Assembly (NCBI GenBank): GCA_016934825.1
Contig: JAFGSB010000062.1
Location: 1-45,076 of the forward strand
Length of the DNA: 45,076 bases
DNA from: Candidatus Zhuqueibacterota bacterium
GTDB taxonomy: Bacteria; Zhuqueibacterota; Zhuqueibacteria; Residuimicrobiales; Krinioviventaceae
Direction: 5' to 3'
This document shows positions 44,365 to 45,076 of this stretch, piece after piece. How positions within the stretch are numbered: the first letter of the stretch is position 1; each line of letters starts with the position of its first letter. Below the pieces are notes generated by a model, which worked only from the letters and a program-made list of their open reading frames with translations, ran no database searches and was not told the origin of the DNA. The translations under genes and the position numbers were made by a program.

Positions 44365-44422
44365 AGGGACCGGCGCACCGGTCGTTGAGTATGACGAGTG
44401 CAGTCCTAACGGGCGGGACTAC
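44365..44422. repeat. GIY-YIG-linked repeat, first copy of the core
   Basis: AGGGACCGGCGCACCGGTCG (44365-44384) and the bases to GGGACT (44422) match the segment starting at 44581 in the repeat before the GIY-YIG gene, at lower identity. It includes the stem AGTCC / GGACT. Confidence 0.6.
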
Positions 44423-44448
44423 TCGGGGCCCGTGGTTTAAAATAATCC

Positions 44449-44498
44449 GGTCATCGAGTAGGGCGTCCCGGTTACGGGACGCACGTATCGAGATGACC
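44449..44498. repeat. GIY-YIG-linked palindromic unit
   Basis: GGTCATC (44449-44455) and GATGACC (44492-44498) close a unit whose centre is a perfect 8-bp stem, GCGTCCCG (44463-44470) with CGGGACGC (44475-44482), around a GTTA loop. The same outer GTCATC / GATGAC ends bound the unit at 44597-44650. Confidence 0.75.
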
Positions 44499-44523
44499 TT
44501 CGGAAAGAGAGGATTTGGTTGTA

Positions 44524-44650
44524 TTTGACAGAATTGTCCCCTCGATACGGGACTCCTCTCTTCGTTCGTCGTCCCTACTCAGGGACCGACGTACCGGTCA
44601 TCGAGTAGGGCTGTCGAGCGCAGTCCCGTCAGGCGGGATATCGAGATGAC
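44524..44650. repeat. Upstream long direct repeat and palindromic unit
   Basis: The 95 bases at 44524-44618 match 44968-45062 with no gaps; I count 9 mismatches. The right part (44597-44650) is another palindromic unit, with GTCATC and GATGAC at its ends and TCCCG / CGGGA inside. It ends 28 bases before the start of the GIY-YIG gene. Confidence 0.85.
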
Positions 44651-44678
44651 AATACAAATAACAAACATAGGGGAAAAT

Positions 44679-44972
44679 ATGCCATTTACTTACATCCTTG
44701 AATGTTCGGATAAAAGTTTTTACACCGGCAGTACCCGGGACCTGGAAACGAGACTGATTCAACATCAGTCAGGGGAAGGCGCTAATTATACAAAAAAAAG
44801 GCTGCCTGTGACATTAGTCTATTGGGAAGAGTATGACCGTATAGATGACGCGTATTATCGGGAAAAACAGATTCAAAGATGGTCACATGCCAAAAAACTG
44901 GCGCTTGTTGAAAGCAGATTTGATGATTTGCCCAAATTGGCCAAGAAACAATTTCGGAAAAATAAAATTTGA
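44679..44972 (+). CDS. GIY-YIG nuclease-family protein flanked by repeats
   Basis: A protein of 97 residues from ATG 44679, which has AGGGGA at 44669-44674; an in-frame ATG at 44646 falls within the repeat and has no site. The GIY-YIG domain is complete: FTYILECSDKSFYTGSTRDL (Y-I-L and Y-T-G as the two Tyr/Gly motifs), RLIQHQSGEGANYTKKRLP (Arg and His), and the metal Glu in YYREKQIQRWSHAKK. This is the short UvrC/YhbQ-like group. The stop TGA (44970-44972) lies inside the first bases of the downstream repeat. The tight pairing with repeats suggests a mobile or repeat-processing unit rather than a housekeeping repair gene. Confidence 0.88.
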   Translation: MPFTYILECSDKSFYTGSTRDLETRLIQHQSGEGANYTKKRLPVTLVYWEEYDRIDDAYYREKQIQRWSHAKKLALVESRFDDLPKLAKKQFRKNKI

Positions 44973-45076
44973 CAGAAACGTCCCCTCGGTACGGGACTCC
45001 TCACTTCGTTCGTCGTCCCTACTCGGGGACCAACGCACCGGTCATCGAGTAAGTCTGTCGAGTTTACGAGACAGAC
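44968..45076. repeat. Downstream long direct repeat, cut by the window end
   Basis: 44968-45062 matches 44524-44618 in 86 of 95 positions by my count. The repeat begins in the last codon of the GIY-YIG gene. At its end GTCTGTC (45053-45059) pairs with GACAGAC (45070-45076). The rest of the unit lies outside the window. Confidence 0.85.

Follow-up and report, generated by a model that had tools for sequence, protein, structure and literature searches.

Does the small GIY-YIG nuclease gene near the end of this DNA belong to the palindromic repeats that surround it, or has it settled among them by accident? The window (the whole stretch of 45,076 nt that was analysed) ends within a cluster of such repeats. 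The earlier note on this DNA had proposed that the gene and its repeats form a unit resembling RAYT/REPIN systems, in which the nuclease helps to spread the palindromes. Here, the structure of the locus, the surroundings of related genes and the distribution of the repeats in other genomes are considered in turn.

The nuclease gene and its palindrome cluster

The gene (44679..44972, + strand) encodes a protein of 97 aa, and its assignment is based on Pfam (PF01541, E=2.3e-18), an alignment, an AlphaFold2 model and a fold match. The protein is UPF0213/COG2827-like and belongs to a subfamily marked by TGST..GEGANYTKKRLP. Y5, Y15, G17, R25 and E62 are conserved in the alignment of 32 relatives, and the domain together with invariant Y5, Y15, R25 and E62 places the protein among the GIY-YIG enzymes. 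The AlphaFold2 model (pLDDT 93) matches UPF0213 structures (1zg2) as well as Slx1, a GIY-YIG nuclease that acts on branched DNA. Searches with the window protein against anti-phage defence families (PADLOC) and phage protein families (PHROGs) gave no match. Carriage of the close subfamily by phages or plasmids was considered and rejected, as no member above 60% identity was found in phages or plasmids and none in viral contigs; a near-DNA search of plasmids was likewise without a match.

The gene is surrounded by hairpins of a single plan, arm-GAG-loop-CGA-arm', which alternate between the strands, and the repeat unit is an opposed pair of such hairpins. Hairpin 1 (44449..44498, + strand, GGTCATC-GAG-loop-CGA-GATGACC) was found in the hairpin scan and matches model R1 with E=7e-8, a model built from 15 sequences that include hairpin 1. 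Hairpin 2 (44536..44586, - strand, GTCCCT-GAG-loop-CGA-GGGGAC; scan, model E=0.003) and hairpin 3 (44597..44650, + strand, GTCATC-GAG-loop-CGA-GATGAC; scan) are opposed and form a dimer with a spacer of 10 nt. Beyond the gene lie hairpin 4 (44980..45030, - strand, GTCCCC-GAG-loop-CGA-GGGGAC; scan, model E=0.001) and the first part of hairpin 5 (45041..45076, + strand, GGTCATC-GAG-TAAGTCTGTCGAG...), inside which the contig ends. Hairpins 1 and 3 had been recognized before, and their folding as DNA does exceed that of shuffled sequence (z=-5.3 and z=-2.2). The two hairpins on the opposite strand and the fifth, broken by the window end, are additions to the earlier note; of the two minus-strand hairpins, one reaches z -2.4 against shuffles by way of another pairing and the other z -0.7.

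The direct repeats described around the gene are present, at 44523..44618 and 44967..45062 (both + strand), and are 96 nt long, free of gaps and 91% identical. The left copy is made up of an opposed hairpin and the first half of the next one. The right copy extends over the gene's stop codon and, as had been observed, begins in the last sense codon (ATT at 44967-44969, followed by the stop TGA at 44970-44972). The start of the left copy, TTTGACAGAA, had been read as the tail of another copy of the gene, which it need not be. Three units without a gene stand in tandem at the end of contig C13 of the same genome, at distances of 148-160 bp; TTTGACAGAA occurs in two of them, and the third has a variant of this linker. 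The linker thus belongs to the repeat, with the stop codon of the gene inside it, although it may originally have been derived from a gene tail. Only three of the four core copies announced in the earlier note were recovered, at 44366, 44582 and 45026. The latter two correspond to the 10-nt junction of the opposed hairpins plus the hairpin edges, and the copy at 44366 (GGGACCGGCGCACCGGTCGTTGAGTA) is degenerate. It lies in a repeat remnant without assigned strand (44366..44445, direct-repeat family D3) that folds no better than shuffles (z=-1.2).

Positions 45047-45076 form an exact 30-bp overlap with the start of the reversed C13 end, where the array continues, and because of this overlap the two contigs may adjoin. 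If the junction is real, the array may have rho on one side and a fumarase-like gene on the other.

Hairpins near related genes

A scan of 84,980 genomes for relatives of the gene gave 43 loci (48-71% identical) in Bacteroidota, Chlorobiota, Calditrichota, Spirochaetota, Ignavibacteriota, Fidelibacterota, Chloroflexota, Verrucomicrobiota, Pseudomonadota, Actinomycetota and others, where single host names are unsure since many of the genomes are metagenome bins. Around 44 genes, all hairpins up to 600 bp away whose arms matched perfectly over 6 bp or more were tallied, and the inner triplets were ranked. A TGAG/TCGA pattern had been spotted by eye beforehand; nonetheless, the tally ranks every triplet pair. 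GAG/CGA accounted for 87 of 890 hairpins near the 44 genes, which represent about ten phyla, and the runner-up pair for 8, compared with 7 GAG/CGA hairpins among 2400 in a far control (>1.5 kb from the genes). When shorter or imperfect arms were allowed, 40 of the 44 loci had at least one GAG/CGA hairpin, the weakest single matches being perhaps due to chance; with these relaxed arms, hairpins were found upstream at 24 loci, downstream at 30 and on both sides at 15. Adjacent GAG/CGA hairpins lie on opposite rather than the same strand in a ratio of 41:17 (P=0.002).

The tally was replicated with 28 loci of the window's phylum, a set that includes the misplaced and uninformative loci L200, L214 and probably L211. 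GAG/CGA was again the top pair (22/530; next pair 5), and its occurrences were confined to genes of the TGST/TKKRLP type or near kin (genomes G042, G050, G075, G045, G019, G031 and G044). Three further genomes with subfamily genes, G018, G025 and G071, scored zero in this tally, yet in each the gene adjoins hairpins of this plan whose arms are shorter or interrupted. YhbQ-like proteins of the UPF0213/COG2827 group (PDB 1zg2, 1ywl) resemble the window protein in fold, length and domain. Unlike the window gene, the YhbQ-like members of this phylum (ARYTRGRRP) are not flanked by GAG/CGA repeats, and the tally found zero such hairpins around them. The bracketed arrangement recurs in G042, where two near-identical opposed dimers enclose the gene within a contig of 209.8 kb (G042:C199), in G075 with hairpins of the same plan, and in G071 with model matches on both sides of the gene. 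In G006 a broken GIY-YIG frame (G006:C5:168047-168190) is found beside a GAG/CGA hairpin (168336), and is perhaps a decayed module.

The Watson-Crick arms of the hairpins vary, whereas GAG and CGA are fixed and without covariation. The arms covary with a score of 0.66 against 0.15 for shuffled sequence, and in a second set with 0.58 against 0.19, the hairpins of both sets having been chosen by hand for good arms. In a test independent of the arms, with sites picked by GAG-N-CGA only, the pair next to the core was Watson-Crick in 62% of sites near the genes versus 27% far from them; G.T pairs at this position showed no enrichment among sites picked without regard to arms. Enrichment of Watson-Crick but not of G.T pairs favours constraint or copying at the level of DNA over RNA. 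A known RNA family was also considered for the repeats, and Rfam gave no match. Judged from the sequences, GAG opposite CGA would form the pairs G.A, A.G and G-C on one strand, i.e. a tandem G.A mismatch closed by a G-C pair, and C.T mismatches on the other. The palindrome would thus have a readable strand, marked by the tandem G.A mismatch.

Loop types cluster on the nuclease tree beyond chance but loosely (14 changes versus 18.4 expected). Given this only moderate clustering, the idea that loop type and protein have co-evolved strictly one to one was rejected.

Dispersal of the repeats and relation to the gene

Lone copies of the repeat beyond the locus, for which the earlier note proposed a search, do exist: in its own genome the repeat forms a dispersed, genome-wide family with 34 DNA matches at a cut-off of E<=10, the weakest of them probably due to chance, and 24 model matches. 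In G001, of the same genus, 68 model matches occur as single hairpins and opposed pairs in many unrelated contexts. No cognate gene was detected in G001, and its only small GIY-YIG gene was rejected as a hidden partner because it is of the tRNA-linked tandem type. The cognate gene was also undetected in G041 (12 copies) and G063 (25 copies). Repeats in many genomes without any GIY-YIG gene were what, according to the earlier note, would refute mobilization, and these three exceptions go part of the way towards it. Such cases could be due to loss of the gene or to gaps in the assemblies at repeats; several of the G001 repeats are located at contig ends, so that the absence of the gene from this genome is not strong evidence.

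Among 82 genomes of the window's phylum, repeat families of at least 5 copies were found in 7 of 18 gene-positive versus 3 of 64 gene-negative genomes, the copy counts mixing model searches of unequal sensitivity. The association has an odds ratio of 13 (P=7e-4, ignoring shared descent), with gene-positive defined as presence of the close subfamily at E<=1e-22, a cut-off chosen after the list had been seen. Several gene-carrying genomes, such as G018, G031, G045 and G050, have few model matches. G025 contains 15 dispersed opposed GAG/CGA dimers with a constant pitch of 43 bp; these short-loop dimers are located inside a longer, MITE-like element of ~140 bp with terminal inverted repeats.

Two congeners were compared at sites corresponding to modules, and neither provided a clean empty site. 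Behind the rho orthologue of G001 (75% identical) lies different DNA that contains neither the gene nor the repeat. The archease-rtcB pair follows the module in G042, and in G041, where the module is missing, another gene precedes the pair. As one flank differs each time, the module-less sites of G001 and G041 are not clean empty sites.

Competing explanations, known systems and other GIY-YIG repeats

These comparisons make a strong case that the pairing between this GIY-YIG subfamily and this hairpin family is real, recurrent and specific. Since the same signature hairpins bracket close relatives in about ten phyla, the nuclease and its palindromes are probably functional partners. The enzyme likely acts on the hairpin, and that it spreads the repeats is no more than a possibility. 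The best explanation, to which we assign a probability of roughly two in three, is that of a REP-like palindrome family with a cognate GIY-YIG enzyme in the place held by the Y1 enzyme in RAYT systems; this enzyme would act on the hairpin, and spreading is the least certain part. In such a system the enzyme would recognize the mismatched hairpin in single-stranded form, on the lagging strand or in incoming ssDNA, and would nick or cut beside the mismatch. With least certainty, repair of the cut ends or their recombination with other copies might maintain and amplify both the repeats and the gene and now and then spread them; the two would then be selfish partners with an additional effect on DNA exchange.

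The likeness to REP/REPIN elements with their RAYT (REPtron) lies in short palindromes, opposed dimers as in BIMEs, an enzyme gene flanked by repeats, lone copies across the genome and a strand-asymmetric tag. By contrast, the nuclease has a GIY-YIG instead of an HUH/Y1 fold, and its tag is an internal GAG/CGA mismatch instead of a terminal GTAG; the arms of the window hairpins end in GGTC/GACC. With neither an HUH/Y1 enzyme nor a GTAG tag, the window system is not a member of the REP/RAYT group. The RAYT/REPIN analogy of the earlier note thus applies to the flanking of the gene, the opposed dimers and the lone copies, and fails for the Y1 enzyme and the GTAG tag.

The closest known enzymes are those of the Ssn family. 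Ssn of Neisseria meningitidis was reportedly described about 2025 as a GIY-YIG nuclease cleaving ssDNA at NTS, a target present in hundreds of copies, and is said to affect transformation; the family is said to be large, with thousands of homologues of varied specificities. Shared with this description are a small GIY-YIG enzyme and a dispersed multi-copy repeat, the latter present in the window's own genome and cognate by association only. Unlike the target reported for Ssn, the candidate target here is a GAG/CGA hairpin, and opposed dimers of it bracket the gene. The mode of action of the window system is most likely similar. An Ssn-type role without mobility is a rival explanation, rated at somewhat short of even odds. 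Incoming or exposed ssDNA would be cut at the repeats, tuning uptake and recombination, and the repeats would spread by other means, e.g. recombination, slippage or gene conversion. The shared enzyme superfamily, the dispersed cognate repeat, the Ssn/NTS precedent in Neisseria and the lack of a clean empty site at the G001 and G041 sites fit this explanation, but it does not account well for repeat units that recur in unrelated contexts or for a gene bracketed by its own repeats, which suggests joint copying.

That the palindromes are independent REP- or MITE-like repeats moved by another transposase, and that the gene simply came to lie in intergenic DNA rich in repeats, appears unlikely. Such hitch-hiking would explain the repeats without a detected gene in G001, G041 and G063 and the short-loop dimers of G025, which are part of a longer element bounded by terminal inverted repeats; it is at odds with a link that is specific to the subfamily across about ten phyla, and with the different repeat that surrounds each GIY-YIG subfamily looked at. 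Ordinary bidirectional terminators or mRNA-stabilizing hairpins, repeated by chance, are very improbable: the repeats do form hairpins, and several lone copies are located between convergent ORFs, but no regular T-run follows the hairpins, GAG/CGA is fixed while the Watson-Crick arms vary without an excess of G.T pairs, and no Rfam family was matched. Although the window contig ends inside a repeat, chance or an assembly artefact of repeats at contig ends is already refuted by the same arrangement in other assemblies, such as the long contig of G042, and in many independent genomes.

Other GIY-YIG genes are found next to other palindromes. On contig C89 of the window's own genome (L032 1300-2080) a second small GIY-YIG gene lies between copies of another palindrome, TGTCATTTCGA...GAGAAATC, which has 42 matches in this genome, and a third type of GIY-YIG gene and repeat is present in G026. 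The GAG/CGA plan appears again in Methylobacterium (CCTCATCCT-GAG...CGA-AGGAGG) and likewise in Sphingomonas. In Sinorhizobium, GIY-YIG genes (L244, L246; ~400 bp on each side) are flanked by palindromes of the form CTCATTCCTGTG-CTTGT-CACAGGAATCCA, which carry CCTC, a variant of the tag, and fit CGTC-type REPs as published (PMC3733652). CGTC REPs are high-copy palindromes, mostly in head-to-head dimers, with a terminal CGTC, TGTC or CCTC tag, an 8-9-bp stem starting with AT and a CCA tail; CGTC-1 in Neisseriae is identical to dRS3, and no transposase partner was found for these elements (PMC3733652). The window repeats are also high-copy palindromes in opposed dimers, but they carry GAG/CGA instead of the CGTC features, and the published description of CGTC REPs does not include an internal GAG/CGA mismatch. 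CGTC REPs may pair with another GIY-YIG subfamily, a lead that comes from few loci. A broader proposal, which we regard as less likely than not, is that of a second REPtron class, in which GIY-YIG enzymes, in place of HUH transposases, would spread ssDNA hairpins tagged by G.A mismatches and each subfamily would have its own palindromes, CGTC REPs included.

Within the set of papers searched there was no account of a pairing between GIY-YIG enzymes and GAG/CGA palindromes, or of a partner enzyme for these palindromes. What is new here is the GAG/CGA signature, together with the lead to the 'orphan' CGTC REPs. Intergenic palindromes of the GAG/CGA plan, found in many phyla, gain a testable GIY-YIG partner, and the pairing suggests one for the CGTC REPs, which had been left without a transposase (PMC3733652). 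The signature predicts part of the recognition element of the enzyme; combined with the variable arms, it may allow many GIY-YIG target sites to be read from genomes, and such enzymes could serve as sequence-specific ssDNA cutters.

A further arrangement is seen on contig C47 of the window's own genome (L033 1-1082), where a small GIY-YIG gene lies in a ~373 bp tandem repeat with pieces of tRNA and directly adjoins tRNA-like sequence. A similar arrangement is present in G001:C54 (L174), and both look like a tRNA-linked GIY-YIG element.
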